Positions 1,023-24,232 of a stretch of DNA of 64,000 nt are shown here, one piece after another; the first letter of the stretch is position 1, and each line of letters opens with the position of its first letter. Source of the stretch: Litorivicinus sp. (lineage in GTDB: Bacteria; Pseudomonadota; Gammaproteobacteria; Pseudomonadales; Litorivicinaceae); the NCBI GenBank assembly GCA_028339155.1, contig JAOLBK010000006.1:1-64000 (forward strand), in the 5' to 3' direction. The notes under the pieces were generated by a model. The model was not told where the DNA came from, ran no database searches, and was given only the letters and a program-made list of their open reading frames with translations. A program made the position numbers and the translations under genes.

Positions 1023-2078
1023 GTGATCAAAGACTATAATCAACTAATAGTTTCCGTAGATCAGCACGTTTCGCATGCTTTGCAGATTCTTGACGAGACT
1101 GGAAGTGGGATTGTTCTGGTATGTGACGACAATAGTTTATTGCAGGGAGTGATAACTAATGGTGATCTTCGTAGGCAAATAACATTGGGCGCTTCGCTTA
1201 TTTCTGAGTGCGTGACGAGTGTTATGCAGAAGAAATTTATTTCTGCAGAAGAGAAGTGTGACAAAGAACAGGCTATGCAAATTATGTTGCAGCATGGTCT
1301 TCAACATTTGCCGGTGCTCAGCAGCAAAGGACGTTTGGTTGGTCTTCGCTTTCTTGATGATTTCTTGGCTATTGCTAAGCAGCTCGCCAATCCTGTTGTA
1401 ATTATGGCTGGAGGTTTGGGGACGCGTCTGGGCCAGTTAACTGTTGACACACCTAAACCAATGTTGCTTATTAAGGGTCGTCCTCTTCTCGAGATTTTGG
1501 TAGCTAAGTTGAGATCGTGTGGGTTTACGAATATCTATTTAAGTGTTGGGTATCGAAAAGATCAAATTAAAGCTCACTTCAGAGATGGTTCCGATTTCGG
1601 GGTTAATATAAATTATTTAGAAGAGGATTTCCCTTTGGGCACTGCCGGGGCGCTGCGCAAGATGATCGGGCTTTTGTCTTTACCAGTTGTCGTTGTTAAC
1701 GGCGATATTTTGTCAAAAATTGATTTTGCGGAATTGGTGTCGGAGCACAATAAAGACAAAGCAAGGGATGCTTCGATAGGGTTGCGGTCATACAAGGTAG
1801 CAATTCCATATGGTGTGGTAGACCTAGTGGAGGATAAGGTAATTCAATTCTTAGAAAAGCCGTTAATAGAGAAATATGTAAACGCTGGAATATATGTGTT
1901 TAATCCCGATTTGTTATCAGAAATACCGAGTGGTGTAGATTTTGGAATGGATTCGTTCTTGAATGTTTTATTGGAAAAGGGTTATGAAATTAAGGGATTT
2001 AGAATCTCAGATTATTGGATCGATATTGGATCGCCCTCCACTTTTCATGACGCTCAACAGAGTTGGTTAGAGGAATAA
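1023..2078 (+). CDS. CBS-domain nucleotidyltransferase, PtmE-like (sugar-1-phosphate guanylyltransferase)
   Basis: The protein has 351 residues. Residues 1-120 form a pair of CBS domains, with the motifs GVITNGDLRR near 42-51 and LPVLSSKGRLVGL near 96-108. Residues 124-351 form a nucleotidyltransferase with the sugar-nucleotide motif MAGGLGTRL (128-136) followed by TPKPMLLI (143-150). This fusion is known from PtmE of Campylobacter, which makes GDP-glucosamine as the entry sugar of legionaminic acid synthesis. The GTG start at 1023 follows a weak purine-rich stretch. The next gene overlaps its end, and the following ORFs encode LegF-, LegB- and LegC-like enzymes, which supports a role in nonulosonate supply. 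The specific nucleotide and sugar cannot be read from sequence. Related MPG-type enzymes of heptose or mannose pathways remain possible. Confidence 0.75.
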   Translation: MIKDYNQLIVSVDQHVSHALQILDETGSGIVLVCDDNSLLQGVITNGDLRRQITLGASLISECVTSVMQKKFISAEEKCDKEQAMQIMLQHGLQHLPVLSSKGRLVGLRFLDDFLAIAKQLANPVVIMAGGLGTRLGQLTVDTPKPMLLIKGRPLLEILVAKLRSCGFTNIYLSVGYRKDQIKAHFRDGSDFGVNINYLEEDFPLGTAGALRKMIGLLSLPVVVVNGDILSKIDFAELVSEHNKDKARDASIGLRSYKVAIPYGVVDLVEDKVIQFLEKPLIEKYVNAGIYVFNPDLLSEIPSGVDFGMDSFLNVLLEKGYEIKGFRISDYWIDIGSPSTFHDAQQSWLEE

Positions 2079-2779
2079 AAATTGCACTAATTCCGGCAAG
2101 AGGAGGCTCCAAGCGTTTTTCGAGACAAAATATTAGGAGTTTTGCAGGAAAGCCGCTCATTGATTATTCTATTGAAGCGGCGTTGAAAAGTGGGAAATTT
2201 AATAAGGTTGTTGTATCTAGCGATAGTTCTGTACTATCACATTGCGCTAGAATTTTGGGCGCAGATGCGCTCGAAAGACCGCAGTTGTTATCTAGTGATG
2301 ATGCTTCAAGTTCAAGTGTAGTGATTCATTTTTTGTCCGGATATCCTCAATGTGAGTGGTTTGCGTTACTGCAACCGACCGCACCTCTGAGATCGGTGGT
2401 CGACACTAGAAATGCGGTCGATTTTTATGGGGGAGGCGAGATTATTGAATCCGTTGTAGCGGTCTCCCAGTTGACCGTTCATTTTCAAGGGCTGTCGTTG
2501 GCAACCTCTGAATCCAAGCTGGTGTTTTTAGCAAAGTTTATGAATATGGCGGAAATTTTTGATGAAAATAGTCAATATGTTTACGTTAACGGTTCTATTT
2601 ACACTAGTAGATCGGATCGTATTAGAGAAGGGTTATCCCTAGTTGATCATGATTCTCATTGTCCTTTGGGGCCGAAAATTAGGCCAATTGACATAGATGA
2701 CGAAATAGATTGGGTGGTCGGTGAAGCATTAGCAGAGAAAAGGCAGCTTAATGGGAACAATTTTAGTTACGGGTGCTGA
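2063..2779 (+). CDS. legF: CMP-nonulosonate synthetase (acylneuraminate cytidylyltransferase family), LegF-like
   Basis: The enzyme has 238 residues and would activate a nine-carbon keto-sugar acid with CTP to give the CMP-sugar donor used by glycosyltransferases. The family motif ALIPARGGSKR lies at residues 8-18, followed by NIRSFAGKPLIDYSIEAA, and QPTAPLRS is near residue 111. The start is taken as TTG at 2063, overlapping the upstream gene by 16 bases; no ATG lies between that point and the conserved motif. It also overlaps the next gene by 29 bases, which implies translational coupling. The neighbours LegB and LegC point to a legionaminate- or pseudaminate-type substrate. A second enzyme of the same family is encoded at 6721, so the two may activate different sugar acids. 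Confidence 0.8.
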   Translation: MVRGIKIALIPARGGSKRFSRQNIRSFAGKPLIDYSIEAALKSGKFNKVVVSSDSSVLSHCARILGADALERPQLLSSDDASSSSVVIHFLSGYPQCEWFALLQPTAPLRSVVDTRNAVDFYGGGEIIESVVAVSQLTVHFQGLSLATSESKLVFLAKFMNMAEIFDENSQYVYVNGSIYTSRSDRIREGLSLVDHDSHCPLGPKIRPIDIDDEIDWVVGEALAEKRQLNGNNFSYGC

Positions 2780-3752
2780 TGGTTTTATTGGCTCTCACTT
2801 AGTGGAGGTGTTAGTCGCCAACGGTTATCATGTTAAAAGCATGGTTTGTTACAATGCATTTGGTCATTATGGGTGGCTCGATTCGATTGATCCGAAAATT
2901 ACAGATAGTTGCGAGATTGTAATGGGAGATATTCGAGATCCAGTGTTTGTTGATGAAGCTGTCTCAGGTTGTTCGTTTGTGATGCACTTGGCGGCTTTGA
3001 TTGGGATTCCCTTCTCTTTCCGTGCGCCAGATTCCTATGTCGATGTCAATGTTAAAGGCACTTTGAATATTTTAAATGCGTGCCGAAAACATGACGTTGA
3101 GAGGCTTATCCATACTTCGACTAGTGAGGTTTATGGAACTGCCCAGAGTGTTCCTATTGAAGAGGCTCATCCACTTGTAGGTCAGTCTCCTTACTCAGCC
3201 TCAAAAATTGCAGCAGATAGCCTCGCGCTTTCGTACTATTATTCATTCAATTTGCCAGTGATGATTTTGCGGCCGTTCAATACCTTTGGCCCCCGCCAGT
3301 CAATGCGAGCGGTCATACCCACGATAGCCGTTCAGCTTTTGAGCGATTCTCGTATAGTTAGGTTGGGTGATTTAACACCAACCCGAGACTTTACTTTTGT
3401 AGAAGATACCGCTCTCGGCTTTTTAGCTGCTCTCCGCTCAAGAGATATTGTGGGTGAGGTGGTAAACCTAGGTACTGGTTTTGAGATAAGCATAGCAGAC
3501 CTTGTTCCGCTTATAGCCGGAGTTTTGGGGGTTGATTATGAAATTGAATCTGATTTAGCCCGAGTGCGACCAGCGGCGAGTGAAGTGTTTAGGTTGGTCT
3601 CAGACAATTCCAAAGCCCGAAACAGAATGGGATGGAGCCCAAATTTTGATGGACATGAAGGTCTTATCCGGGGTTTGCAGGCAACAATTGAATGGTTGCG
3701 TGCGAATCGAGTAGGTGGATTGTTTACTGGTCGAAGTGGATACGTGATCTGA
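2751..3752 (+). CDS. legB: NAD-dependent sugar-nucleotide 4,6-dehydratase, LegB-like
   Basis: Extended short-chain dehydrogenase/reductase of 333 residues. The Rossmann motif TGADGFIGS is at residues 7-15, and the catalytic pair is Tyr148 and Lys152 in SPYSASK. A TSEVYG motif at 124-129 and RPFNTFGPRQS further on are typical of the 4,6-dehydratase subgroup. In legionaminic acid synthesis LegB converts the NDP-HexNAc to a 4-keto-6-deoxy sugar that LegC then aminates. The ATG at 2751 lies inside the end of the cytidylyltransferase gene. The stop TGA overlaps the ATG of the next gene by one base, so dehydratase and aminotransferase are probably translated together. UDP- versus GDP-sugar specificity is not visible, though the PtmE-like neighbour favours GDP. 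Confidence 0.82.
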   Translation: MGTILVTGADGFIGSHLVEVLVANGYHVKSMVCYNAFGHYGWLDSIDPKITDSCEIVMGDIRDPVFVDEAVSGCSFVMHLAALIGIPFSFRAPDSYVDVNVKGTLNILNACRKHDVERLIHTSTSEVYGTAQSVPIEEAHPLVGQSPYSASKIAADSLALSYYYSFNLPVMILRPFNTFGPRQSMRAVIPTIAVQLLSDSRIVRLGDLTPTRDFTFVEDTALGFLAALRSRDIVGEVVNLGTGFEISIADLVPLIAGVLGVDYEIESDLARVRPAASEVFRLVSDNSKARNRMGWSPNFDGHEGLIRGLQATIEWLRANRVGGLFTGRSGYVI

Positions 3753-4924
3753 TGTCTGTGGATGTGCTCTCTACGCGACTCAGAAGACACTTCAGTTCTA
3801 AAAAAATTGGACTGCACGAGCCTCAATTTAATTGTGATGATTCTCATGCGTTACTTCAATGTTTAGAATCCTCCTTTGTGTCTTCTGCAGGACCTCAAGT
3901 TGATATTTTCGAAACCTTACTTTGCGAGTTTACGGGAACTCGATTTGCCGTAGCGACTAATTCTGGGACGTCAGGATTGCATCTGAGCCTTCTTGCTAAC
4001 GAAATTGGCCCTGGCGACGAAGTGCTATTGCCGGCGCTAACCTTTTGCGCGTCAGCCAATGCGATTTTATATACAGGGGCAACTCCCAATTTTTTAGATA
4101 TCGACAATGAAACTTTGGGGATCCATATGGATGCTTTATCTGAGTGGTTAAAACACTGCTCTGAAAAGTGTGGGTCGAGTTATCGAAACCGCTATACGGG
4201 TCGTCGCTTGGCAGCGATTATGCCAGTGCATCTTTATGGCCACATCGGTGACATGGATAGGCTTCAGGAAATTGCTGATGAGTATAAACTTAGAGTGGTA
4301 GAGGATGCTGCCGAAGCATTGGGGAGTTGTTATAATGGTGTTCATCCCGGAAACTTTGGGCAATGCGGCGTTTTGAGTTTTAACGGGAATAAAATTATCA
4401 CCACCGGGGGCGGTGGCATGGTCTTAACCAACGATAAGGTGGTGTATAAAAGGGTTAAGCATCTTGCATCTACAGCGCGTGTAGCGGGAAGTGCGCCCCT
4501 GACTCATGATAGCTTGGGTTACAATTATACTATGCCCTCTCTGAACGCAGCTTTAGGAATATCGCAATTTAAAAAAATTAGAAGATATTTAAAAGAAAAA
4601 CGTTATCTTTTCGATGTTTATAAAAAGATCTGTTCAGAGATTGACGGTATCGAGATCTTTGAGGAGCCAAGGTATTGCAAATCCAACTACTGGTTGAACA
4701 ACTGTGTCTTCGATGAGCCGCTTGATGATATCGCGGGCACTATTGGCCGGTTTGCACAGGACGGCATTGAAGTTAGGGCGGCATGGGATTTAATGCCGAA
4801 ACTGCCGTACCTAAGAGAGTTTCCTTGTGCGCCAATACCAAATTCTTCGCTGATGTCCAAGAGGCTTTTGAATATTCCGAGCGGTCCTAAAGCCTTTCAG
4901 AGTTGGAATCAAGCAGATGGTTGA
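3752..4924 (+). CDS. legC: PLP-dependent sugar 4-aminotransferase, LegC-like (DegT/DnrJ/EryC1 family)
   Basis: The protein has 390 residues counted from the ATG at 3752, which overlaps the dehydratase stop (TGATG). A longer frame opens at 3692 inside the upstream gene and is unlikely. DegT-family features include NSGTSGLHLSLLA around 70-82, DEVLLPALTFCASANAI at 89-105, VVEDAAEALGS at 182-192 with the cofactor-binding Asp185, and the PLP lysine Lys214 in FNGNKIITTGGGG. LegC transfers an amino group to C4 of the 4-keto-6-deoxy sugar made by LegB. The downstream ABC transporter gene starts within its last codons. The acetyltransferase, hydrolysing epimerase and NeuB-like synthase expected for a full pathway are not in the window. 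Confidence 0.85.
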   Translation: MSVDVLSTRLRRHFSSKKIGLHEPQFNCDDSHALLQCLESSFVSSAGPQVDIFETLLCEFTGTRFAVATNSGTSGLHLSLLANEIGPGDEVLLPALTFCASANAILYTGATPNFLDIDNETLGIHMDALSEWLKHCSEKCGSSYRNRYTGRRLAAIMPVHLYGHIGDMDRLQEIADEYKLRVVEDAAEALGSCYNGVHPGNFGQCGVLSFNGNKIITTGGGGMVLTNDKVVYKRVKHLASTARVAGSAPLTHDSLGYNYTMPSLNAALGISQFKKIRRYLKEKRYLFDVYKKICSEIDGIEIFEEPRYCKSNYWLNNCVFDEPLDDIAGTIGRFAQDGIEVRAAWDLMPKLPYLREFPCAPIPNSSLMSKRLLNIPSGPKAFQSWNQADG

Positions 4925-6704
4925 TCTTAATGTATTGCGCTTTTTTTATTCCATGTTGGGGGCTCGCATTTTTGTTCTAGGAGTCCTATTTGTGGTCGCA
5001 GCCTTATTTGAAGGACTGGGCATTGTGGCTGTGATCCCAATAGTTGAAAATTTGATCCAAAGTGGTAATGGATCGATTTTACCTGATTATTTCGAAGTTT
5101 TCGGATATCGGCTAAGCATGCAACTGAATTTAGGGGGATGGTTTCTGACTCTGACGTCTGCGGTCTTGTTGAAGACAGGGGCGCTTGTATTTATCTATAG
5201 ATACAGTGCATCTGCTCGCTCGGATTTATTGTGCGAGTTAAAAGAACGAATTTTGAATTTACATGTTAGTCGAGCTCATTTTGAATTTTCATCAGCTTCT
5301 CATGGGTCGCTTTTGAACATTGCTGGGGAGCAAGTTTGGAGGAGTTTGCAGAGTTTTTTTGCGTTGACGCAGCTGTTTGGTGTCGCGGTCATGTTGGTGG
5401 TGTATTTAGTTTTAGTTGGATACTTGGCCGTTGAATTACTAATTGCTGCCTCTTTCATGGGGTTATTAGTTTTAATTTTTTTTAAGGCAGTTAACAAGCG
5501 TGTCTCTAATGCGTCAAAAAAATTGGCCGAAGCATCTCAGTTTGTTAGCAAAGAATATCTGACCATCCTTGGAGGGCTTAAATATTTTCGCATCACAGGA
5601 GAGCTCCCTAAATTTTATGCTGTAGCTGTGAGTAGAGTGGCTGAGCAAGCTTTCGCCGTAAGGGAGTTGGGTAATTGGAGTGCAGTGACAATGGGTGGGC
5701 GAGAGTTGATGATATTTGTGTGTCTATCTGGTACGTGGTTGCTAGTGTATGCGATGAATCCAACTCTGGCAGCTGGATCTTTTCTAGTCTCTCTGGCTGT
5801 TATGTATCGAGCGTTCAGCAGTGTTTTAGCCTTTCAAGGGAATTTCCAATCGTACCTGGAAAGTAGATCAAGCGTGTTGGCCGTGTCTGATCTGTTGAAT
5901 GTCACTGAACAAGCATTTAAAAAAAATGTTGCGACGGTTTCAGAGAGACCTTCGGTTATAAATGAAGATCATTGGATTGAACTTAGAGCGGTATCTGTAA
6001 AGTATCCGTTGAGTGACAATGCTGTATTCGACCAAATTTCCTTTGATTTACGAAAGGGCCGAAGTATCGGCCTAATAGGCGTGTCTGGCTCTGGTAAGAC
6101 TACCTTGATTGATACTCTACTCGGTTTGATTAATCCGAGTGGCGGTATCGTAGCGGCGGATAGCACTTTAATTTTTGGTGATGCCTTTGTCGGAAGCTCA
6201 GACTTCGGTTACGTTGGTCAGCAGCCAATGGTCTTCCATGGTAGTGTGCTGGAAAATATAACTGTGATTTTAAAATGTAAATGGGAATCAATAACTGACG
6301 CTCAAAGGGGTCGAATAATAGAGTTGTGCGACTCGATGGGTTTGACCGATTTGGTGTCCCAGTTGCCTGATGGCTTTGATAGTTTGATTTCTGAAGATCA
6401 AATTTCAGGAGGGCAAAAGCAGAAGATTGCGCTAGCCAGAGAATTGTTAAAGAATCCCAAAATCTTAGTGCTTGATGAACCATTCAGCGCCTTGGATGCA
6501 GCTAGTCGCTCTGATATCATTGCAATATTACAAAACCGCGTAGGGTTTAGTAACGATGCGACACTCCTCATTATAGGACACGCTAAAGGTGATATTGATT
6601 GGGTCGATGATCTTTTGATGATCGAGGATGGGAAAATTACAAATTCTATATCGTCCTCCGCGAGTAATTTAAATCGCGGTGATTTAAGTTATTTGTTGAA
6701 ATAA
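4917..6704 (+). CDS. ABC exporter/flippase with fused membrane and ATPase domains (PglK/MsbA-like)
   Basis: The protein has 595 residues. The N-terminal ~320 residues carry about six membrane segments, beginning with FVLGVLFVVAALFEGLGIVA. The C-terminal ATPase domain has Walker A GVSGSGKTT near residue 388, the signature ISGGQKQK near 495, Walker B ILVLDEPFSALD just after, and an H-loop IIGHAKGD. The organisation matches PglK and similar half-transporters that flip undecaprenyl-linked oligosaccharides. No Wzx-type flippase was seen in the locus, so this is the obvious candidate for moving the finished glycan or lipid-linked unit across the inner membrane. Start ATG 4917 overlaps the LegC stop by eight bases. 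Export of a glycolipid other than an undecaprenyl oligosaccharide is an alternative. Confidence 0.8.
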   Translation: MVDLNVLRFFYSMLGARIFVLGVLFVVAALFEGLGIVAVIPIVENLIQSGNGSILPDYFEVFGYRLSMQLNLGGWFLTLTSAVLLKTGALVFIYRYSASARSDLLCELKERILNLHVSRAHFEFSSASHGSLLNIAGEQVWRSLQSFFALTQLFGVAVMLVVYLVLVGYLAVELLIAASFMGLLVLIFFKAVNKRVSNASKKLAEASQFVSKEYLTILGGLKYFRITGELPKFYAVAVSRVAEQAFAVRELGNWSAVTMGGRELMIFVCLSGTWLLVYAMNPTLAAGSFLVSLAVMYRAFSSVLAFQGNFQSYLESRSSVLAVSDLLNVTEQAFKKNVATVSERPSVINEDHWIELRAVSVKYPLSDNAVFDQISFDLRKGRSIGLIGVSGSGKTTLIDTLLGLINPSGGIVAADSTLIFGDAFVGSSDFGYVGQQPMVFHGSVLENITVILKCKWESITDAQRGRIIELCDSMGLTDLVSQLPDGFDSLISEDQISGGQKQKIALARELLKNPKILVLDEPFSALDAASRSDIIAILQNRVGFSNDATLLIIGHAKGDIDWVDDLLMIEDGKITNSISSSASNLNRGDLSYLLK

Positions 6705-6720: not shown

Positions 6721-7407
6721 TTGTCAGTAATAGCTATTATCCCGGCGCGTGGAGGCTCTAAAGGGATCCCGCGAAAGAACCTATTGCCGATGGGTTCCTC
6801 ATCATTGCTCGGTCATGCCATCGAATGTGCCGTAGAGTCTAAAGTGTTCGATGAAATTATAGTTACTACTGAGGATCAAGAGATTGCGGAAGAAGCCGCT
6901 AAATTTGATGTTGGTGTATCTCATCGCCCACTCGAGCACGCCGGAGATTCGGCTGAAGTGGACCCCTTATTACTTTGGACACTTACCAATCACCATTTTA
7001 AAAGTGGTACACCTGACTCCTGTGCGCTGTTGTATGCAACAGCACCTCTGAGGCGGTCAAATCATGTGAAGGAAGCTTATGAAGAATTCGTTAGTGGTGG
7101 ATTTGACAGTCTGTTGTCTTTGGTTGCTGACAACAGCTATCTTTGGGAACGAAAGCTAGGAGGTAAGACGGTTCAGGCGACGAATTACGAACCAGCTCGC
7201 AGAGCAGCTCGACAGGATGAAAATTGGAATCAATTTTACGAAAACAAAGCAATTTACTTTTTTAATGTAAAGGGTTTTTTGGATACAAAATGTAGACTTT
7301 TTGGTGAAATTGGTTTTTACGAAATGTCTAAGGCGAGTTCGATTGATATTGACTCTAAAGAAGATTACGAACTCGCGAAGCTACTTAGATTGCATGGGCT
7401 TAGCTAA
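6721..7407 (+). CDS. Second CMP-sugar-acid synthetase (acylneuraminate cytidylyltransferase family)
   Basis: The enzyme has 228 residues, with the family motif IIPARGGSKGIPRKN at residues 5-19, YATAPLRR near 105 and a conserved acidic tail SSIDIDSKEDYELA. It is only distantly similar to the LegF-like protein at 2063, so it is a different subfamily rather than a recent duplicate. The start is TTG 6721, preceded by CAGGA at a normal distance. The next ORF starts inside its last codons. The following genes encode a sugar-acid dehydratase and a uronate-dehydrogenase-like enzyme instead of nonulosonate enzymes, so this synthetase may activate a 3-deoxy-2-keto sugar acid made by them. That substrate assignment is inference; an ordinary sialate-like substrate is also possible. 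Confidence 0.75.
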   Translation: MSVIAIIPARGGSKGIPRKNLLPMGSSSLLGHAIECAVESKVFDEIIVTTEDQEIAEEAAKFDVGVSHRPLEHAGDSAEVDPLLLWTLTNHHFKSGTPDSCALLYATAPLRRSNHVKEAYEEFVSGGFDSLLSLVADNSYLWERKLGGKTVQATNYEPARRAARQDENWNQFYENKAIYFFNVKGFLDTKCRLFGEIGFYEMSKASSIDIDSKEDYELAKLLRLHGLS

Positions 7408-7612
7408 AATTCGGCTACACAATGGGGATAATATTGAAACAGTGGTGGATCAATCTTCTCTATTATTCGGGCAAAAAGTAGCGTGTCGTGAAATAGCAAA
7501 AGGTGAGCCAATCTTCAAGGGTGGGATCATTATTGGGGTCGCATTATTATTAATCTCTGTTGGAGATATTGTTGACAGAAACTCATTACGCTCCACATTT
7601 TCAGAATTCTGA
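7394..7612 (+). CDS. SAF-domain small subunit of a split UxaA/GarD-family sugar-acid dehydratase
   Basis: A frame of 72 residues from ATG 7394, overlapping the cytidylyltransferase gene by 14 bases and the next ORF by about 53 bases. The sequence (KIRLHNGDNIET, then ACREIAKGEPIFKGGIIIG, then SVGDIVDRNSL) fits the SAF domain that forms the N-terminus of altronate and galactarate dehydratases, including the typical 'I.KGEPI.KyG..IG.A...I..G..V' layout. In most bacteria this domain is fused to the catalytic part. Here the frame stops at 7612 and the catalytic ORF continues in another frame. A sequencing frameshift cannot be excluded, but separate small SAF subunits exist in the family. Confidence 0.65.
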   Translation: MGLAKIRLHNGDNIETVVDQSSLLFGQKVACREIAKGEPIFKGGIIIGVALLLISVGDIVDRNSLRSTFSEF

Positions 7613-8759
7613 AGGGTTTTATGGTTACCTTAGAGCCGGATCTAGGGGTATAGGGATACGGAATTATACAATAGTTTGTAGTCTTGCCCCATGCACCGAC
7701 TCCTGGATTGTTGACGTTCCCCGAAAATTTGCTCCGTCAGTTAAAGCGATACCTTCCCCGGGGTTTTGCAGCAGGGACGCGGGTTTTTTAGACAGGCTAA
7801 TGAAATTATTGTCAAATCCTAATGTCTTTTCGGTCATCTTTGTTGACCAGCGCTGTAGTAGTATAGATTTGGACTATGTGGTCAACGGACTCAAATCTCA
7901 GGGTATTCCTTCGTACTCTCTAGCAATTGATTCGTTTGAATGCTTGGCAGATTTTCATTGTCATTTAGACGCCGTAATTAATCAAAATTTGAATGAGGCA
8001 TCAGCTATTTCACGCAGCTCGGCATCATGGTCCTCTTTGTGTATTGGTGCTAAGTGCGGAGGCTCTGATTGGACTACCGGTCTTTTTGCAAATCCTCTAG
8101 TTAGGTCAATTTTTGAGGAGTTAATTAGTCTCAACGGCTGGGGCATGGTCTCTGAACTGGGTGAGTACTTGGGTGTTGAGAGTCTTATTTTAGATCAAAT
8201 TAAAGATGCCGCTTTGCAGGAGAAATTTCTTTATGCATTAAAGTTGAAATTCGATAAATTGAGAAGCTTCGGTACTGATGCGTTTATGGTGAAAGGCAAT
8301 TTAGATGGTGGTTTGTTTACGCCCGAAGAGAAAGCGCTCGGTTCCTATGCCAAATTTTCTGGGCTGAAAATTATTGAAGTGCTTGATGTCAATCCTAAGG
8401 TCGAAGTATTCGATAGGATGCGACGAGATGGTGGAATCGTACTTCAATTGGGTTCGAATCAAGAGCCGCAAGTTTTTACTGAGATGGCGTATGCTGGTTG
8501 TGTTGGTGCGCTTTTTACAACTGGCTTAGGCGGCGGATTCAATCATCCTTTGACGCCGTTATTTGTAATATCACCGAGGGTGAGTGTTGAAAAAAAGATG
8601 TCTACTTTTTTTGCGGACTTTTCCCCGTCACCCGAAGAGTGCGTCGAAGATGTCGAATCGTTAAGAGATAAGCTATTTAGCAAATTTGAGCGGTGGATAA
8701 ATGGTGAGCTAAGTAAGGTTGAGAAGGAAAGTGTTGATGCGTTTCAATGGAGTCTATAG
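7560..8759 (+). CDS. UxaA/GarD-family dehydratase, catalytic subunit
   Basis: The protein has up to 399 residues. It begins with GFYGYLRAGSRGIGIRNY (residues 19-36), equivalent to the 'GY.R.dGr.GvRNy' opening of altronate/galactarate dehydratase catalytic domains. It contains the diagnostic GAKCGGSDWTTGLFANP, here with W replacing the usual G after SD, and SELGEYLGVESL. Late in the protein comes a GCVGALFTTGLGGGFNHPLTP segment, in the place of the family's 'G...i.FTTGrGs..G....P' motif. The reaction would be removal of water from an aldonic or aldaric acid to give a 2-keto-3-deoxy acid. The start is uncertain: TTG 7560, 7569 or 7572, all overlapping the SAF ORF. Its place between a CMP-sugar synthetase and a uronate-dehydrogenase-like gene in a glycan locus is unusual and suggests a biosynthetic role. 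Confidence 0.72.
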   Translation: MEILLTETHYAPHFQNSEGFYGYLRAGSRGIGIRNYTIVCSLAPCTDSWIVDVPRKFAPSVKAIPSPGFCSRDAGFLDRLMKLLSNPNVFSVIFVDQRCSSIDLDYVVNGLKSQGIPSYSLAIDSFECLADFHCHLDAVINQNLNEASAISRSSASWSSLCIGAKCGGSDWTTGLFANPLVRSIFEELISLNGWGMVSELGEYLGVESLILDQIKDAALQEKFLYALKLKFDKLRSFGTDAFMVKGNLDGGLFTPEEKALGSYAKFSGLKIIEVLDVNPKVEVFDRMRRDGGIVLQLGSNQEPQVFTEMAYAGCVGALFTTGLGGGFNHPLTPLFVISPRVSVEKKMSTFFADFSPSPEECVEDVESLRDKLFSKFERWINGELSKVEKESVDAFQWSL

Positions 8760-9563
8760 TTGACTTTTAAAACTAAAGTAGTTGTTACTGGTTCTTCTGG
8801 GTTGGCTTGCAGTTTGTTGCTCGATCGGTTTTCACAACTTGAAGCTTATTCATTTCTGTTTACGGATAATAGATCTGGATGTGCTAGCGAAAAAAATTTT
8901 ATTATGGGAGACATCACGAGTTACGAATTTTGTCTCACTCTCTTAAAGGGAGCGTCTTGCCTGATTCATTTGGCTGGGTGCAGTAACCCTGATGGTTCGG
9001 CTCGCGATATTTTGTCGGCAAATATTGTTGGGGCGCATAACTTATTTACTGCATGTGCGGAAAATGAAGTTAATAAGATTATTTTTGCCTCCTCAAATCG
9101 TGTTGTTGAGGGGTTGGAAGATGATTGCTTGAATTCAGTCGAATCTGTGCAAACGGAACATGATACGGAAAACCTTCAATTTTTTCCTACTCGGCTATAT
9201 GGCGCCTCAAAGGTTTGGGGCGAGGCATTATTAGACGTCTTTTGTAGTGAGGATCCACGTCGAAAAGCGATTTCTCTGAGAGTAGGAACACTATGGCCGG
9301 TCGAGTTTGATGCATTGTCGACTGATGAACTTGTTCGTACGATCCTTGAGAATAATGGAGGTTTTTATAATGAAATTGATGTGGCATCGTTTCGCCGCCG
9401 CCAAAGTTTTCTTAGAGTTTCATCAAGAAAGTGGCAATCAGCAATTGAGAAGATTCTTGGCACAGAGTGGACTGGGCATGTAATTCGAGCGCTGGATGCT
9501 AACGGTGAGAGTTGGATAACTGAGCGGCGTGGTAGTAGTAATTTTAAGTTTTTTGGTGAGTAG
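8760..9563 (+). CDS. NAD(P)-dependent SDR, uronate-dehydrogenase-like
   Basis: The protein has 267 residues from TTG 8760, one base after the stop of the dehydratase gene. An N-terminal Rossmann motif reads TGSSGLACS (residues 11-19), with the third glycine replaced by Ala. Later segments SANIVGAHNLF, IFASSNRVVEG, YGASKVWGEALL (catalytic Tyr and Lys) and ISLRVGTLWP follow the pattern of bacterial uronate dehydrogenases, in which the serine of the triad lies in an ASSN motif. Uronate dehydrogenase oxidises glucuronate or galacturonate to the aldarolactone, the precursor of substrates for galactarate/glucarate dehydratases. Together with the upstream UxaA/GarD-type enzyme this makes a coherent sugar-acid path. 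A sugar epimerase or reductase role cannot be excluded. Confidence 0.62.
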   Translation: MTFKTKVVVTGSSGLACSLLLDRFSQLEAYSFLFTDNRSGCASEKNFIMGDITSYEFCLTLLKGASCLIHLAGCSNPDGSARDILSANIVGAHNLFTACAENEVNKIIFASSNRVVEGLEDDCLNSVESVQTEHDTENLQFFPTRLYGASKVWGEALLDVFCSEDPRRKAISLRVGTLWPVEFDALSTDELVRTILENNGGFYNEIDVASFRRRQSFLRVSSRKWQSAIEKILGTEWTGHVIRALDANGESWITERRGSSNFKFFGE

Positions 9564-9579
9564 TCTGCGGATTTTAATT

Positions 9580-10893
9580 ATGGAAAAAATTAGTGTAGTC
9601 ATTCGTACATTCAATGAGGAGGCCTGGATCGGTCTTGTGTTGAAGCAAATTTTAAAACAAAAAACTGAGCGCGAGGTTGAGATTGTAATAGTAGATAACA
9701 AATCCACTGATCGCACTGTCGATAGAGCTTTATCTATTTGCCCTGATGTCAAATATACAGAAATTAATGATTTTTTTCCTGGAAAAGCGTTGAATTTAGG
9801 TGTGGAGGCGTCTTCGGGCGATTATGTAGTATTTTTATCTGCTCATTGCGTTCCAGTCGACGAATACTGGATAGATAATTTAGTTAAGTCGCTCAAAGAA
9901 GATTCTGTGGTGGCTTGTTATGGCCGCCAAGTCCCGGTGGAAAGTACTAGTGCTCTTGATAAGCGAGATCTTTGGATTACCTTTGGCATAGAAGACAGGT
10001 ATCAGATTGTTGATTCTTTTTTCCATAATGCAAATTCTGCCATGCTCCGTTCATATGCATGTCAGTATCCTTTTGATGAAAGTGTTACGAATCTTGAAGA
10101 CAGGGTATGGAGTTGTGAACAACTGAAGAATGGTAATGTAATAAAATATAGCGCTAACGCCACAGTTTTCCATCACCACGGCATACACCATGGCGCGAGT
10201 GAGTCCAGAGCCAAAAAGGTGGTGGCGGTTATGGAAGAACTGCATCGAGACGATACGAATTATTCTGGTTTTAGAAGTCTCATTGATGACGTAAGTCGCT
10301 GCATAGTTTTCCCGATATCTTCCAGGTACGACAAAGCCGACATAAAATCGTTAGAAAGTAAATTGGACTCGTTGCAGAAGCTAGAGAAACATGGTTGGAA
10401 CGTTGTAATAGCAACGTCAACAACGGAGCAAGGCAAGAGATGCAGAGAGCTCGGCCTGTCAGTCTGTGAGGCTCGCGACTACTCTGATGTGCAGGCTATT
10501 CCACCATTGGTCGAAGACATTTCAGTAATAGTAGAATTTTTCGATATGAAAAGTCAGTATTTTGATTTTTTTGGGTTTGCAGATATACGTAAGTTTGATT
10601 TATCCCCAGACGGTCTTGACAGCGTCTTAAGAGCGTTATGGCATTCTGATGCTTGCCTTGCGGTTGCTGCTATACATAGTCGAAGTCACAAAATGAATAT
10701 TGTAAATATGAGCGATTTTCAAGGCAATCAAGCCGTCATGTCGAGAGGTAGATGGGGTGATAATTTAATGGCCGAAAATGAAAATGTGATTATCGATCCA
10801 GCGAGACTAATTTTGGGAACCCAATCAGCTTATCGTAGAAAAAATATTTTTGATCAGCCAGTATTTTTGTATTCTTTATCGGGTAAACTTTAG
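9580..10893 (+). CDS. Family 2 glycosyltransferase with an extra C-terminal domain of unknown type
   Basis: The protein has 437 residues from ATG 9580; a longer frame from 9529 overlaps the previous gene and lacks motifs. Residues 1-210 are a GT-A fold family 2 transferase: ISVVIRTFNEEAWIG at 4-18, VDNKSTDRT around 36-44, a DYVVFLSAHCVP acceptor region and an LEDRVWS segment. From about residue 230 a second domain of ~200 residues begins (CIVFPISSRYDKAD), ending with IIDPARLILGTQSAYRRKNIFD. Its alternation of strand and helix and the RYDKAD/SVLRALWHSDA segments faintly recall a cytidylyltransferase fold, but the nucleotide-binding signature is absent. It may be a sugar-recognition or degenerate nucleotidyltransferase module. 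Substrate unknown. Confidence 0.72.
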   Translation: MEKISVVIRTFNEEAWIGLVLKQILKQKTEREVEIVIVDNKSTDRTVDRALSICPDVKYTEINDFFPGKALNLGVEASSGDYVVFLSAHCVPVDEYWIDNLVKSLKEDSVVACYGRQVPVESTSALDKRDLWITFGIEDRYQIVDSFFHNANSAMLRSYACQYPFDESVTNLEDRVWSCEQLKNGNVIKYSANATVFHHHGIHHGASESRAKKVVAVMEELHRDDTNYSGFRSLIDDVSRCIVFPISSRYDKADIKSLESKLDSLQKLEKHGWNVVIATSTTEQGKRCRELGLSVCEARDYSDVQAIPPLVEDISVIVEFFDMKSQYFDFFGFADIRKFDLSPDGLDSVLRALWHSDACLAVAAIHSRSHKMNIVNMSDFQGNQAVMSRGRWGDNLMAENENVIIDPARLILGTQSAYRRKNIFDQPVFLYSLSGKL

Positions 10894-11118: not shown

Positions 11119-12243
11119 ATGAAAAAGATTGTGATCGTTACCACCGGGTTACGTAATGGGGGTGCCGAAAGAGCACTATACCAGTTAGTAATTGAGGCAT
11201 CTAAAAAGATGGAGGTGTATGTGGTAAGTCTTGTTCCTCCAACGTACTACAAAAATGATTTTCTAGATCTACCTATTTCTTTGGTCGACTCGGATTCGAA
11301 TAGATTTTACTTTATCAAACAGTTGTTGCAGTTATATTTTTTAATTCGTCGTCAACGCCCCGATGCCGTGCAGACCTGGATGTACCATGCTGATATTTTT
11401 GGTGGTCTTGTGGCTAAATTTGCCGGGGCAAACCGCATCATTTGGGGGGTTCGTTCTTCAGTTCTAAGGTGGGGTGAAGCAAAGGCAACAACTCTTTTGT
11501 TGGTGAAGGTTGGTATTTTATTATCCAGAATTATTCCCGATGCGATAATCTTTTGCTCGCGCGTCTCACTGAATGCTCATCTGAAAATTGGATACGACAA
11601 GAAGAAGGTCCAGTTAATAAATAACTCGTTCCGAGAGTCTGAATTCCATGTAATGACAACTCAGTCTACAAACCAGAAGTTTTTTCACTTGGGATTTATA
11701 GGTAGATTCGATCCAGTGAAAAATATACCATTAATTTTGCAAAGTACTAGTGAATGTATTCACCAAGGTGTGCCGGTTAGATTATCGATGTGCGGTACTG
11801 ATATTTCTTCTGAGAATAAAAATCTTCTCAATCTAATTCGCCAGAAGAATCTCGAGTCTCACATAAATCTTTGCGGGGAAGTGAAAAACTTGAGGCGTTT
11901 ATACAATTCAATGGATTTGTTAATCGTTGGAAGTTTATCTGAGAGTTTCCCTAATGTTATTCTTGAAGCGAAAGGGTGTGGTTGCATGGCGGTTTCCTCG
12001 GATGTTGGCGCGGCCCGCGAAATCATTGGTCGATATGGATTAATAGTTCAGTCGTATGATCCTCTCGACTTTGCGTCCGCTATTAAGCGGATATATTCTT
12101 TTAAGAATCGATGGTCGCCCCAGGCTTGGAAAAAGTTGCGTAAAAAAATTAGTCGAGATGCGAAATTACGCTATTCTCAGTTGGCTGCTTTAAGCGCTTA
12201 TGAGCAAGTTTGGTTTCCGAAAGGTGGCAGTGGTAATGGCTAG
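11119..12243 (+). CDS. Family 4 glycosyltransferase
   Basis: The protein has 374 residues with a GT-B fold. The N-terminal domain opens with KIVIVTTGLRNGGAERALYQL, the 'GGaEr' acceptor loop typical of GT4 enzymes. The C-terminal domain has FIGRFDPVKNIPLIL around 195-209, and the retaining GT4 signature region SESFPNVILEAKGCG near 275-290, where the E-x7-E element is visible as SESFPNVILEA. The enzyme would add one sugar from a nucleotide donor on the cytoplasmic side of the membrane. It follows a 225-base spacer, so a new transcript may begin here. The next gene starts within its final bases. Confidence 0.85.
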   Translation: MKKIVIVTTGLRNGGAERALYQLVIEASKKMEVYVVSLVPPTYYKNDFLDLPISLVDSDSNRFYFIKQLLQLYFLIRRQRPDAVQTWMYHADIFGGLVAKFAGANRIIWGVRSSVLRWGEAKATTLLLVKVGILLSRIIPDAIIFCSRVSLNAHLKIGYDKKKVQLINNSFRESEFHVMTTQSTNQKFFHLGFIGRFDPVKNIPLILQSTSECIHQGVPVRLSMCGTDISSENKNLLNLIRQKNLESHINLCGEVKNLRRLYNSMDLLIVGSLSESFPNVILEAKGCGCMAVSSDVGAAREIIGRYGLIVQSYDPLDFASAIKRIYSFKNRWSPQAWKKLRKKISRDAKLRYSQLAALSAYEQVWFPKGGSGNG

Positions 12244-13657
12244 TAATGGCATAATTTTTCGGGCAAATGGAAAAAGAGCCGAAATTTTCAAGGATGTAAT
12301 AGATCAATTTAATTTTGACTACACATGTCTTATTAGTGATAAAGAGCCTCAATTTGAAGTTGATAACTATTATTTTTTTAGAGATTGTATATTTGGCGAT
12401 ACATATAAAGAACATCATATTTCCAATCTAGATGATGAATTTTTAAAGGCGATGTCTGATTCAGAGTCATTATTTTATGAAATGTTGGAGCGATATAATC
12501 TTTTTCAGCATTTTTGGCATTATAGAGAGAGGCGTTTTTTTTATCTTAAGTGCTTATCTTTTTGGAAAAAAATTCTTATAGAAAAGCGAGTGAAGGTTAT
12601 CGTTTTCATGACGATCCCTCACACTGGCTTTGATTTCTTAATATTTAAATTAGCAAAAATTCTTAATATAGAGACAATTTCTTTTTATCGACTGCCGACT
12701 GTCGGTCATTTCTGTTCACTGTACCTGCTTCGTGATTTGGACGACCCTTTGCCTGCATTGAAAAACGTATCGAAAGAAGTGATCGATGGAAATGGTAATG
12801 AGTATTTATCTGATCGTATTTCTTGTTTTCTGAAAGTAAATGCGACCCCGGAATACGCTACTTTCACAGGAGCAGAATCAAGCACTAATTTGGTTGAATG
12901 TAGGAATTTTTCAAATCTTGAGTTCGCTTTGAAAAAAATTAAAAAGCGATTAGAAGCGATTTCAAGATTATGGAGTTATCTCAGATTATTGGATTTCATC
13001 CCTAGATTATTGATTAAATTTGACGATATCAGAGCAAAACAGCGAGTAAATGTTATAGATCCCGGTACGTTAAATCGTTTCGTGCTTGTCCCGCTGCATT
13101 TTCAGCCAGAGGCGTCTACTTCTCCATTGGGTGGCCATTACGTGTTGCAGTTTCTGTTTATAAATCAAATCGCCGATTTGTTGCCTGACGATGTGCAAAT
13201 CGCAATTAAATTTAATCCCAGAAATGGCGATTTGTCACGTTTTTTGAGGGGTTTGATGCCCTTGTCAGATAAGATTGTATTTATTGATAAATCTTTTGAT
13301 TCGTCGCTGCTAATTGAGAAATCGATCTGCGTGGCAACTGTGACCGGGACGGTTGGCTGGGAAGCAGTGGCGAAAGGTAAGCCGGTATTATTGTTTGGTG
13401 ATTGTTTTTATAAATATGCACCTGGCGTGTTTAGGATCAGAAGTTTTGCCTCACTGGTTGAGGCGCTTGAGATTATCCTCGCCGGAGAGGGAGGTGCTTC
13501 AGAGTCGGAGTTCACAAAATTCTTATGGATGTTGCAGAAAAATACTTTTGAGGGGTGGGTCGATCATAGATATCAGGCAATATCGAGGCTTGATGCAAAT
13601 GAAAACAACATTATTTTAAAAAATAAAATTTTTGAAGCGATAGATCAGTCTAGATGA
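12236..13657 (+). CDS. Capsule-synthesis-like protein (putative glycosyltransferase)
   Basis: The protein has 473 residues from ATG 12236, overlapping the upstream stop by eight bases and preceded by AAAGGTGG; an earlier ATG at 12200 is possible. The first 270 residues show no recognised motif and are rich in Phe and Lys. The C-terminal part has FVLVPLHFQPEASTSPLGG, IAIKFNPRNGDLS and VATVTGTVGWEAVAKGKPVLLFG. This order matches the capsule polysaccharide synthesis family (KpsC/KpsS-like and relatives), where TGT/TGS.GWEA binds the donor nucleotide. Its likely role is a glycosyltransferase of the locus; donor and acceptor are unknown. The overlapping next start (ATGA) indicates coupling. Confidence 0.65.
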   Translation: MASNGIIFRANGKRAEIFKDVIDQFNFDYTCLISDKEPQFEVDNYYFFRDCIFGDTYKEHHISNLDDEFLKAMSDSESLFYEMLERYNLFQHFWHYRERRFFYLKCLSFWKKILIEKRVKVIVFMTIPHTGFDFLIFKLAKILNIETISFYRLPTVGHFCSLYLLRDLDDPLPALKNVSKEVIDGNGNEYLSDRISCFLKVNATPEYATFTGAESSTNLVECRNFSNLEFALKKIKKRLEAISRLWSYLRLLDFIPRLLIKFDDIRAKQRVNVIDPGTLNRFVLVPLHFQPEASTSPLGGHYVLQFLFINQIADLLPDDVQIAIKFNPRNGDLSRFLRGLMPLSDKIVFIDKSFDSSLLIEKSICVATVTGTVGWEAVAKGKPVLLFGDCFYKYAPGVFRIRSFASLVEALEIILAGEGGASESEFTKFLWMLQKNTFEGWVDHRYQAISRLDANENNIILKNKIFEAIDQSR

Positions 13658-15245: not shown

Positions 15246-16514
15246 ATGATTGATATTTTGTATGTAATTCCATTCGGTTCCTCCCTTTCTGAAGCAGAGT
15301 GTAGAAAGATGCTTTTGGAAACCGAGATGAGTTGGTCGGTCATGCATCATTCTAACTATGTTACCAATCAGGAACCCAAAGGCAGCTTACCGTATTCGAT
15401 CATCGGGGTAGATCGCCAATTTTGTGATTATTCTCTTCAGTCAGGTAAGTTTCGTAAACGAAAAACTTTTTACGACGCGGTCAAGGTTGGTGAAGAAATC
15501 CAACGGCTTGATCCTCGATTGGTCGTCAGCCATGTCTCAGATAATGGATTTTCTCACTTGGTGACTTTAATTTGTAAGAGAATTGGGATACCTGCTTGCG
15601 CTCTTTCAGTCTGCCCTTTTTGGCCTGGCCGTCAGTATCTATTAGATCCTCTAAGGATGCTCCCGCTTAACATGCAAAGTATCGGTAAATATCTCCAGGT
15701 TGATAAGAGGCTGAATTCTTCTGAGCCGACTTTTTGTCCTCAATTATCGATCTCTAAATACAATAAGATCTCAAAATTTTGGGGCCGAGGATTTAGATTT
15801 AATAGGAATATATTCGGCATACTGAAAGATTTTTTTATTGCACTGAAACGTTATCGGTTTCAATTTATCCTAGGGCTACTTATTTCTTGGAATAAAAAAA
15901 CCAAGCATTATTCGCAATGTATTAATAGCGCTTCAGAATGCAGGAAGTTTTTATTAGCGTTGCATATGCAGCCTGAGGCTATGCTGCTATGCGGAGACAA
16001 TCGTTTTGCCGATTCAGCCAATCTTTGCGAATGGATTAGCTACAATATGCCATTAGACGCTGCGATGGTTGTGAAGGAGCATCCTGCGCAATTTTTCCGG
16101 ACTCTTTCATTTCACAACAGATTATCTGCGTTGCCAAACGTTGTATATTACAGTGGAGTCAGTGGGGTTTCGGAGATTCTAGAAGACTTTGAGATAGTTT
16201 TTGTAGTGAGTGGAAATGCAGGCTTTGAGGCCTTGCAGAGAGGTTTGAAGGTTGTCATCTTCGATGAGGCATTTTTCAGTGGTTGTCCAAATGTTTACAC
16301 GTTTGATTTCAACGTGCGATTAGATGATTTTTTGGCACATGTGATTGAGCAGCCGATTCAGCCTCTGAGTCATGTTAATGATTGGATGGCGTCTTACGAA
16401 CTCTGGTTGTACGACAACTCAGTAGCCGTGAGCGAACAAGATTTGATTGGTAAGTCTTTTGAGACTGGGATCAAGAGGCTTGAAGCTCTGTATGAAATAT
16501 ACCAAGTAATCTGA
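15246..16514 (+). CDS. Capsule-synthesis-like protein, putative glycosyltransferase
   Basis: The protein has 422 residues. The opening MIDILYVIPFGSSLSEAE and a middle domain with LDPRLVVSHVSDNGFSHLVTLICKRIGIPACAL suggest a GT-B-like N-terminal domain. The C-terminal region, ALHMQPEAMLLCGDN, then MVVKEHPAQFFR, then FVVSGNAGFEALQRGLKVVIF, resembles the capsule polysaccharide synthesis family and the protein at 12236 (compare HFQPEAST and VTGTVGWEA). The two are distant paralogues at best. It probably acts on the cytoplasmic face in assembly of the same glycan. It follows the membrane protein gene by 50 bases. Confidence 0.6.
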   Translation: MIDILYVIPFGSSLSEAECRKMLLETEMSWSVMHHSNYVTNQEPKGSLPYSIIGVDRQFCDYSLQSGKFRKRKTFYDAVKVGEEIQRLDPRLVVSHVSDNGFSHLVTLICKRIGIPACALSVCPFWPGRQYLLDPLRMLPLNMQSIGKYLQVDKRLNSSEPTFCPQLSISKYNKISKFWGRGFRFNRNIFGILKDFFIALKRYRFQFILGLLISWNKKTKHYSQCINSASECRKFLLALHMQPEAMLLCGDNRFADSANLCEWISYNMPLDAAMVVKEHPAQFFRTLSFHNRLSALPNVVYYSGVSGVSEILEDFEIVFVVSGNAGFEALQRGLKVVIFDEAFFSGCPNVYTFDFNVRLDDFLAHVIEQPIQPLSHVNDWMASYELWLYDNSVAVSEQDLIGKSFETGIKRLEALYEIYQVI

Positions 16515-22953: not shown

Positions 22954-24003
22954 ATGGCTTTCAATCAAGTTATTTTTTTGGTCGGATTGCCGATTATTTC
23001 GGGAATTGCGGCTGTAGGTTTGATCATGGTGCTTACACCGCTTGCTGCGTTAGTGGGTGCGATTGACGAACCAGACGACCGTAAGCATCATGCTGGACCG
23101 ACCCCAATGGTTGGTGGTTTTGCTATCTACCTAGTGCTTTTGGCAGTAATCCTTCTCATCGATCCTCCAGAGAAAATAACGTGGATCATGGCAGCTTCAA
23201 CTCTGCTGCTTTTTGTTGGATTTTTAGACGATGCATTTGATTTGGGTGTAAAAGTACGCTTTTTAGTGCAGATCATAGCCGTTGGCATCATGGTATTTGG
23301 TGGGAACTTATCGATTCAGACGCTCGGTTTTACGTTTTTAGGCATGAATGAACTTGGTTTATGGGGTTTGGCGCTAACATGTCTGGCTGTTGTTGGTTTA
23401 ACCAATGCCTTTAATATGGTTGACGGAATTGATGGGTTGGCTTCGGGACACTTATTGATCGGAATGCTGTCATTAATCGCCATTCAGTTAGTATTTTCAG
23501 GTGAAGTCTATCAATTAACTTGGTTATCGGTTCTGTTGGCGACTGTATTTGCTTTTTGGTTGGTGAATATGTCACTAACACCTTTGAGAAAAGTATTTCT
23601 TGGTGATGCGGGTTCATTATTGCTTGGCTTTTTAATGAGCTGGTTGCTGATTTACTACTCCCAAGATCCTATATCGCTGGTACATCCGGTCGCAGCGTTA
23701 TGGTGCGTCACTTTGCCAGTTTATGACACAGTCATTGTGATTATGAAACGCTTGAGAAAGAGCATGTCTCCTTTTCAACCAGACCGAAATCACCTTCACC
23801 ATCTTTTGATCGATGCGGGAGTGCCAGCCAAATTGGCTCTTTTTTGGATTCTCGCGGCATCAGTTTTGTTGAACGTGACGGGCATCGTAATCACCTATCT
23901 TGTTTCACCGATAGTGGGTTTGATTGCATTTTTCATAGTAATGTTGATATTCGCATTTTTTCTGCTGCAAGGCAGAGAGAAGCCAACAGGAAAATATTGT
24001 TGA
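22954..24003 (+). CDS. wecA: Undecaprenyl-phosphate N-acetylhexosamine-1-phosphate transferase, WecA-like
   Basis: The protein has 349 residues and about eleven membrane segments, of the MraY/WecA family. It would start glycan assembly by moving HexNAc-1-phosphate from UDP-HexNAc onto undecaprenyl phosphate at the inner membrane. Visible family motifs are DEPDDRKHHAGPTPMVGG (residues 39-56), the Mg-binding LLFVGFLDDAFDLG (about 86-99), LTNAFNMVDGIDGLASG (150-166), VFLGDAGSLLLGF and the C-terminal PDRNHLHHLL. The HLHH motif is typical of WecA rather than MraY. Length matches the family. It likely initiates the lipid-linked unit extended by the glycosyltransferases upstream. Confidence 0.9.
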   Translation: MAFNQVIFLVGLPIISGIAAVGLIMVLTPLAALVGAIDEPDDRKHHAGPTPMVGGFAIYLVLLAVILLIDPPEKITWIMAASTLLLFVGFLDDAFDLGVKVRFLVQIIAVGIMVFGGNLSIQTLGFTFLGMNELGLWGLALTCLAVVGLTNAFNMVDGIDGLASGHLLIGMLSLIAIQLVFSGEVYQLTWLSVLLATVFAFWLVNMSLTPLRKVFLGDAGSLLLGFLMSWLLIYYSQDPISLVHPVAALWCVTLPVYDTVIVIMKRLRKSMSPFQPDRNHLHHLLIDAGVPAKLALFWILAASVLLNVTGIVITYLVSPIVGLIAFFIVMLIFAFFLLQGREKPTGKYC

Positions 24004-24232
24004 GGATTAGAGTACTTGGTTAGTGATCCGCCTCGATGCTTTGGTGTGAGCATTCGTTTTGATAGTTTGAGCGCTATCGAACGTGTAACTAAATCTTCTG
24101 GAAACATTATACTTTTTAGTGTGGGTAAATTTTACAAGGTATTCGAACAGTAATTCATGGCGTTGTTATTGGATAAAAAATGTCACCGCAGGTTTATTGG
24201 TATAGCACTGCTTGGCGGATACGAACGGCATT

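Follow-up and report, generated by a model that had tools for sequence, protein, structure and literature searches.

Dehydratases of the UxaA/GarD superfamily (COG2721), which includes UxaA (D-altronate) and GarD (galactarate), convert sugar acids to 2-keto-3-deoxy acids. Sugar-acid cytidine monophosphate (CMP) synthetases of family PF02348 activate 2-keto-3-deoxy acids, and to our knowledge, all described routes to a CMP-linked keto-deoxy acid, namely those for 3-deoxy-D-manno-oct-2-ulosonic acid (Kdo), sialic acid, legionaminic acid, and pseudaminic acid, start with a phosphoenolpyruvate (PEP) condensation. Here, we describe a four-gene set in Litorivicinus sp. (contig JAOLBK010000006.1, our contig C31) in which the two enzyme types are encoded side by side. 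The set lies on the forward strand at 6721-9563 of the window, which is the first 64 kb of the contig, in an assembly of 1.88 Mb that is 87.8% complete. It encodes a CMP-sugar-acid synthetase (CMPsyn2), a small SAF subunit (SAF), a UxaA/GarD-type catalytic subunit (DEH), and a short-chain dehydrogenase/reductase (SDR). We tentatively propose that the four genes work together in biosynthesis, as a small module that reaches a CMP-activated 3-deoxy-2-keto acid with fewer than nine carbons by way of a dehydratase.

Each of the proteins has described counterparts from which it departs in some respect. Like other members of the UxaA/GarD superfamily, DEH has both catalytic domains and four cysteines, and its partner is probably SAF-like. 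However, it is 21-26% identical to 15 aligned relatives and sits on a very long branch, its gene is located in a glycan operon, and the SAF motifs of its partner are altered. Separate SAF and catalytic subunits also occur in the sulfolactate sulfo-lyase SuyAB, as in the window, but three of the four cysteines are gone from SuyB-like proteins, which read CGES, whereas DEH has all four and CGGSD. We rejected a SuyAB identity for DEH on these two features. CMPsyn2 shares PF02348, the N-terminal ARGGSKGIPRKN motif, and the C-terminal DID motif with NeuA, PseF, and LegF synthetases, with 24-39% identity to the relatives of this type that were found, but it combines YATAP with ENKAIYF and adjoins a dehydratase rather than NeuB. 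KdsB, the CMP-Kdo synthetase, belongs to the same superfamily and activates a 3-deoxy-2-ulosonic acid. The SDR has its family, size, FASSN motif, and YGxSK motif in common with uronate dehydrogenase (3rft, 6mfh). A two-subunit UxaA-type enzyme, the heteromeric L-fuconate dehydratase of Paraburkholderia mimosarum, is described in PMC6336799, where it was deduced from gene context and unpublished data. By that description, it resembles SAF plus DEH, although its role there is in sugar metabolism, unlike that of a dehydratase in a glycan operon.

Results

Gene coupling and composition

All neighbors in the set overlap or abut. CMPsyn2 and SAF share 14 nt, SAF and DEH share 41-53 nt depending on which TTG (7560, 7569, or 7572) starts DEH, which has at most 399 residues, and DEH and SDR abut. 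CMPsyn2, DEH, and SDR each pass curated Pfam cut-offs, so the module genes are not a chance effect. Composition was continuous across the module, with no break: G+C was 0.38-0.46 over the operon (first 24 kb, 1.5-kb steps) and 0.42 in the module, and G+C at third codon positions was 0.33-0.39 in the module genes vs. 0.35-0.45 in 12 other genes tested. This confirms the tight coupling of the four genes inside a glycan locus that an initial annotation of the sequence had reported, the locus being a legionaminic-type polysaccharide operon. The gene set is real, coherent, and unusual, and was seen in one genome; its function is what we infer below.

The dehydratase subunits

DEH matched PF20629 by a wide margin (E = 6e-35; 121.1 bits vs. 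a cut-off of 26.8) and PF04295 by a narrow one (E = 3e-6; 27.8 bits vs. 27.3). Four cysteines of this enzyme type were proposed to bind one iron, from electron paramagnetic resonance and conservation, and sulfolactate sulfo-lyase lacks them, according to PMC6336799. In an alignment with 34 relatives, including E. coli GarD and UxaA, C45, C70, C99, and C166 of DEH align with C144, C179, C215, and C288 of GarD, an assignment made by order, spacing, and conservation, with the protein of PMC6336799 itself lying outside the alignment. All four cysteines are present in 25 of the 34 relatives, as in DEH; the last alone is kept in eight SuyB-like proteins and one archaeal paralogue. DEH also retains 26 of the 31 columns conserved at 95% or more, with 15% identity at the variable columns, and its CGGSD, NP, E..E, GN..GGL.T.EEK, and TG.G blocks are intact. 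The metal-binding residues that had been sought are thus present by alignment, as four proposed iron-ligand cysteines, together with most of the invariant core. Taken with the genome context and the transferase candidates described below, this favors a working, biosynthetic dehydratase of the iron type, with the iron itself presumed.

Neither Pfam nor NCBIfam recognized the 72-residue SAF at an E-value threshold of 0.01, and its assignment, which is tentative, comes from pairwise similarity only. It resembles the altronate dehydratase N-terminal domain (3k3s, Table 1), has a hit to 3laz at E = 0.19, and is 27-45% identical to SAF stretches that, in other genomes, immediately precede UxaA-like genes or are fused to them. 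The possibility that it is a remnant NeuB C-terminal domain was set aside on account of these matches to UxaA/GarD N-domains. From these comparisons, we interpret SAF and DEH as a heteromeric dehydratase that probably still works but has been strongly re-tuned.

In a tree of 53 proteins, DEH joined a clade to which the two-subunit proteins L007-L009 belong; the ultrafast bootstrap support of 87% is below the usual 95%, and the placement is open to long-branch attraction. As a separate observation, the nearest two-subunit UxaA-like genes (L049, 1013-3387; L050, 8212-10478) lie directly before a galactonate-dehydratase-like gene of the enolase superfamily, so that two unrelated types of sugar-acid dehydratase are adjacent. 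A Haladaptatus plasmid (L059, 3046-5683) carries three UxaA-family genes in tandem, the first without three of the four iron cysteines.

UxaA/GarD enzymes normally serve sugar breakdown. One alternative is that the genes encode a sugar-acid dehydratase of catabolic or standalone function, either inserted into the polysaccharide operon or carried along in it. The UxaA/GarD enzymes named in the part of PMC6336799 consulted are all catabolic, and L007 and L009, the closest two-subunit relatives, adjoin galactonate-dehydratase-like enolase-superfamily genes (below cut-off). However, the composition is unbroken and the genes overlap. PF04295 and PF20629 each have a single match in the genome, both of them DEH, and neither UxaC nor 2-keto-3-deoxy-6-phosphogluconate (KDPG) aldolase had any match in the assembly, of which ~12% may be missing; the same searches were positive in 7 and 8, respectively, of 14 control genomes. 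An E. coli-style catabolic role is therefore unlikely, since UxaC, a KDPG-type aldolase, and a second UxaA were not found, although other aldolases (GarL and dihydrodipicolinate synthase types) and lactonases were not searched for. Profile annotation of the module's neighbors likewise recognized no lactonase, sugar-acid transporter, or aldolase. On balance, we regard the catabolic explanation as improbable.

A proposed pathway

In the route that we propose, the SDR would oxidize a free sugar (an aldose or uronate) at C1 to the sugar acid. The SAF-DEH heteromer, an iron-dependent enzyme in this scheme, would then abstract the alpha-proton and eliminate the 3-hydroxyl to give a 2-keto-3-deoxy acid. 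CMPsyn2 would join this acid to cytidine triphosphate (CTP), after which one of the operon's transferases would add the CMP-activated acid to the polysaccharide. The reactions, iron, substrate, order of steps, and transferase are all elements that we infer. Ring closure is required of any CMP-linked ulosonic acid, which would make a 3-deoxy-hex-2-ulosonic acid, with six carbons and the C6 hydroxyl free, the likeliest product; such an acid can adopt the pyranose form seen in CMP-Kdo. By contrast, the hexulosaric acid derived from an aldarate carries a carboxylate at C6 and allows no 2,6-pyranose closure. If the four genes form one pathway, an aldonate is therefore a likelier intermediate than the aldarate suggested initially, and a hexonate made by an aldose-to-aldonate step suits CMP activation better than a uronate-to-aldarate step. 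The presence of two CMP synthetases in one operon counts for the biosynthetic module, as do the unusual residues of CMPsyn2 described below. The capsule of Klebsiella K38 contains 3-deoxy-L-glycero-pentulosonic acid, a short 3-deoxy-2-keto acid in a glycan, as the proposed product would be.

Candidates for the transferase step were found downstream. For TRANSFERASES, the open reading frames (ORFs) 12200-13657 and 15246-16514 lie weakly above the PF05159 cut-off of 20 (26.1 and 21.5 bits, respectively). The first matches structure entries of the WbbB Kdo transferase (E = 0.011, residues 352-407), and the match of the second to KpsC was non-significant (E = 0.72). PMC12887879 identifies structure 8csb as WbbB and mentions a KpsC-homologous pseudaminic acid transferase; retaining Kdo transferases carry QXXXD and (K/R)XHP motifs, as given in PMC12887879 and PMC9587256. 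Both ORFs have QPEA without the D of QXXXD, and HP is found only in the second (KEHP), vs. KFNP in the first. Judged by these motifs, the two proteins are candidates, not family members. Relatives of the first occur on seven plasmids, and all four plasmids inspected place them in pseudaminic or legionaminic acid loci. Motifs of the PLHxQPEAS and KEHP types occur in this pair, which may represent an unnamed nonulosonate transferase family.

Evidence against the proposed pathway

Several observations weigh against the pathway, beginning with the dehydratase itself. With 26 of 31 conserved columns, DEH ranks below all other proteins of the set (at least 28 of 31-34) apart from one paralogue (20 of 33); at the 90% and 80% levels, its counts are 32 of 44 and 41 of 59, respectively. 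The losses are G98R, G182R, D186E, G267S, and perhaps D352A, which could reflect a shift of the alignment by one residue, D353 being next. The terminal branch of DEH measures 3.22 substitutions per site vs. 0.68 for the next longest. SAF is short, with GQK in place of GHK and IVDRNS in place of HVHxHN. The longest branch among the 53 proteins, lost near-invariant residues, a shortened SAF domain, and altered GHK and HVH motifs could all indicate that SAF and DEH are losing or have lost enzyme function under relaxed selection, or that they form a non-catalytic subunit. Yet the frames are open and the four cysteines and conserved blocks are intact, D352A may be an alignment shift, and the motif changes have precedents: L007-L009 have GNK for GHK, and GarD has WIDESM for HVHxHN. 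We therefore think decay unlikely, though less so than a catabolic role.

A second set of objections concerns the synthetase and the supply of its substrate. The initial annotation had proposed a six-carbon acid made without a NeuB- or KdsA-type condensation, a point that gains no support from the branch of the synthetase or from the NeuB and PseI genes elsewhere in the genome. CMPsyn2 falls in the NeuA/PseF (nine-carbon) branch, not with KdsB; its nearest solved proteins are CMP-sialic acid synthetases (1eyr, E = 2e-25), and it scored 113 bits against the PseF model (cut-off 205.7) and 25.9 bits against the kdsB model, far under the cut-off of 155.2. A KdsB identity was rejected on this last score, and the genome's kdsB is above cut-off on another contig (C16). 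NeuB and NeuC (above cut-off) are encoded with a third CMP synthetase on contig C8, and PseB, PseC, PseF, and PseI (above cut-off) on contig C12. These two sets make it probable that the cell produces nine-carbon acids.

These data suit a different explanation, in which CMPsyn2 activates a nine-carbon nonulosonic acid from a NeuB-type synthase encoded elsewhere, and the SDR and SAF-DEH serve another component. The four genes would then have an operon in common rather than one linear pathway, with the dehydratase in a tailoring branch or acting on another sugar acid. The branch to which CMPsyn2 belongs and the synthases on C8 and C12 support this explanation. Further support comes from the window's starting at the contig start, so that genes upstream are unseen, and from the legionaminic locus of Rhizobium sp. 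WL3, where an SDR likewise follows a CMP synthetase. However, C8 and C12 each have their own CMP synthetase, and CMPsyn1, the first synthetase of the operon, adjoins LegB and LegC. CMPsyn2 also overlaps the SAF gene by 14 nt and has unusual residues. Among 18 sequences compared, it pairs a Pse-like YATAP motif with an otherwise NeuA-like sequence, and the Lys of its ENKAIYF motif is replaced by Gly in 15 of the 17 others, by Asn in one, and by Ala in one; we take both sites to be substrate-contacting. We consider the nine-carbon explanation nearly as likely as the proposed pathway, both being short of probable.

Two side observations concern these other loci. On C8 (L046, 2931-4702), pieces of a CBS-nucleotidyltransferase (residues 277-348) and of LegB (residues 1-48) adjoin intact NeuB, NeuC, and CMP synthetase genes and look like a decaying second legionaminic set. 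On C12 (L047, 3351-13892), a gene that resembles flagellin on visual inspection lies a few genes away from the PseB/C/I/F set. Besides kdsB, CMP-nonulosonate synthetases are thus encoded at three or more loci of this genome.

The SDR is also an imperfect fit. The best matches among solved proteins are the mutated uronate dehydrogenase 6mfh (E = 8e-11), 3ay3 (which we take to be a uronate dehydrogenase; E = 3e-10), and the uronate dehydrogenase 3rft (E = 4e-7), with similarity that stops at residues 180-185. The Ser/Tyr/Lys residues (FASSN, YGASK), presumably catalytic, are retained. However, the SDR reads SSNR against the SSNH of both uronate-dehydrogenase-type structures aligned, and among NCBIfam profiles it scores best with Azf, a glucose-6-phosphate dehydrogenase, but reaches 67 bits against a cut-off of 400. 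The label of uronate-dehydrogenase-like SDR is thus sound as to family and Ser/Tyr/Lys, and strained by the distance from uronate dehydrogenases and by Arg for the His of SSNH. That no lactonase was recognized among the annotated neighbors is a further difficulty, with no genome-wide lactonase search made.

Finally, the four-gene order was found in no second genome, and none of 57 loci of DEH relatives carries a CMP synthetase within the flanks covered, so the expected conservation of gene order did not materialize, although these searches leave absence unproven. DEH was searched in 390 genomes of the order, 369 of the class, 398 of the phylum, and 385 of another class, some drawn repeatedly; its best non-self match had E = 8e-30 and ~29% identity, and the class, phylum, and other-class searches covered only matches with E-values no weaker than 1e-22 to 1e-24. 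The 57 loci comprise 29 of the 65 non-self places in the order set (36 had no locus), plus 6, 16, and 5 new ones and L042. Their flanks measure ~1.5 kb, or less in a few cases (L007, L023), and those of L042 measure 10 kb. L042 (Pelagibacteraceae) was the one DEH relative from a scan of 84,980 species' genomes with exact 8-residue patterns, an insensitive method that distant copies could escape; it is SuyB-like by its cysteines and adjoins a gene read by eye as sulfoacetaldehyde acetyltransferase.

Other collections gave similar results. Viral contigs gave no relative, phages (7 and 2 records) and plasmids (188, 79, and 300 records) gave weak matches only, by listing in the case of the phages, and none of nine plasmid records inspected had a linked set. 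The best non-self match of CMPsyn2 among 22 genomes of the genus and 398 of the phylum had E = 1e-32, and the other 21 genus genomes gave no match better than 1.4e-25 (34% identity). The loci of CMPsyn2 relatives (L044, L051-L054, and L055-L058) contain no dehydratase. Among the papers listed by searches of the open-license literature, none links a UxaA/GarD enzyme with a CMP synthetase or a glycan, judged by title and the start of the abstract.

Taken as a whole, the dehydratase-to-CMP-sugar interpretation draws support from the cysteines, from the genome in which no UxaC, KDPG aldolase, or second UxaA was found, and from the weak transferase candidates. It is at odds with the gene order, the branch of the synthetase, the presence of NeuB and PseI, and the Arg of the SDR.

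The surrounding operon

The features of the window are listed in Table 1. At its left end (1-569), the window coincides with the contig start, so that the polysaccharide operon is cut off at its 5' end. Homologues of the CBS-nucleotidyltransferase adjoin LegC/neuC/neuB in loci L058 and L078. The latter (13572-34411, Rhizobium sp. WL3) is a legionaminic locus with a CMP synthetase, then an SDR, plus a glycosyl amidation set; a second NeuB-family/neuC/CMP synthetase set lies ~15 kb further on.

Table 1. The four-gene set and other annotated features of the window
Feature	Position	Strand	Details
CMPsyn2, CMP-sugar-acid synthetase, NeuA/PseF branch	6721-7407	+	TTG start, 228 aa; PF02348, E = 7e-19
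SAF, small subunit, UxaA/GarD N-domain-like	7394-7612	+	ATG start, 72 aa; 3k3s, E = 7e-4; ORF caller gives 7301-7612, likely gene as listed
DEH, UxaA/GarD-type catalytic subunit	7560-8759	+	PF20629 and PF04295 above cut-off; GarD structure entry 6u7l, E = 5e-11
SDR, uronate-dehydrogenase-like	8760-9563	+	267 aa; PF01370, E = 2e-16; Ser/Tyr/Lys retained
CBS plus nucleotidyltransferase protein of legionaminic-type loci	1023-2078	+	PF00483, PF00571
CMPsyn1, first CMP-sugar synthetase	2063-2779	+	QPTAP motif; PF02348; 6ifd, E = 3e-17
LegB-like 4,6-dehydratase	2751-3752	+	TIGR04180, 463.7 bits, just below cut-off 475
LegC-like aminotransferase	3692-4924	+	TIGR04181, 419.3 bits, just below cut-off 420
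ATP-binding cassette (ABC) permease/ATPase, possibly flippase	4917-6704	+	PF00005
Family 2 glycosyltransferase	9580-10893	+	PF00535; ORF as called starts 9529
Candidate CMP-ulosonate transferase, PF05159-like	12200-13657	+	26.1 bits, cut-off 20
Second PF05159-like candidate	15246-16514	+	KEHP motif; 21.5 bits, cut-off 20
WecA-like initiating transferase	22954-24003	+	TIGR02380, 240.7 bits, below cut-off 326; PF00953
GalU	24212-25075	+	TIGR01099, 385.5 bits, cut-off 326.8
Nucleotide-sugar (probably UDP-glucose) dehydrogenase	25082-26410	+	TIGR03026, 429 bits, cut-off 189.8

Discussion

The four genes could represent an undescribed entry to CMP-ulosonic acids, in which sugar oxidation, dehydration by a recruited iron enzyme, and activation by a re-tuned NeuA-type synthetase take the place of PEP condensation, an idea that we hold with considerable doubt. 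If it is true, the product would be a new kind of nucleotide sugar, and the pathway would explain how short 3-deoxy-2-keto acids enter glycans. A UxaA/GarD gene beside a CMP synthetase would also be a signature for annotators. More broadly, a catabolic enzyme superfamily would have been recruited to the synthesis of surface polysaccharide.

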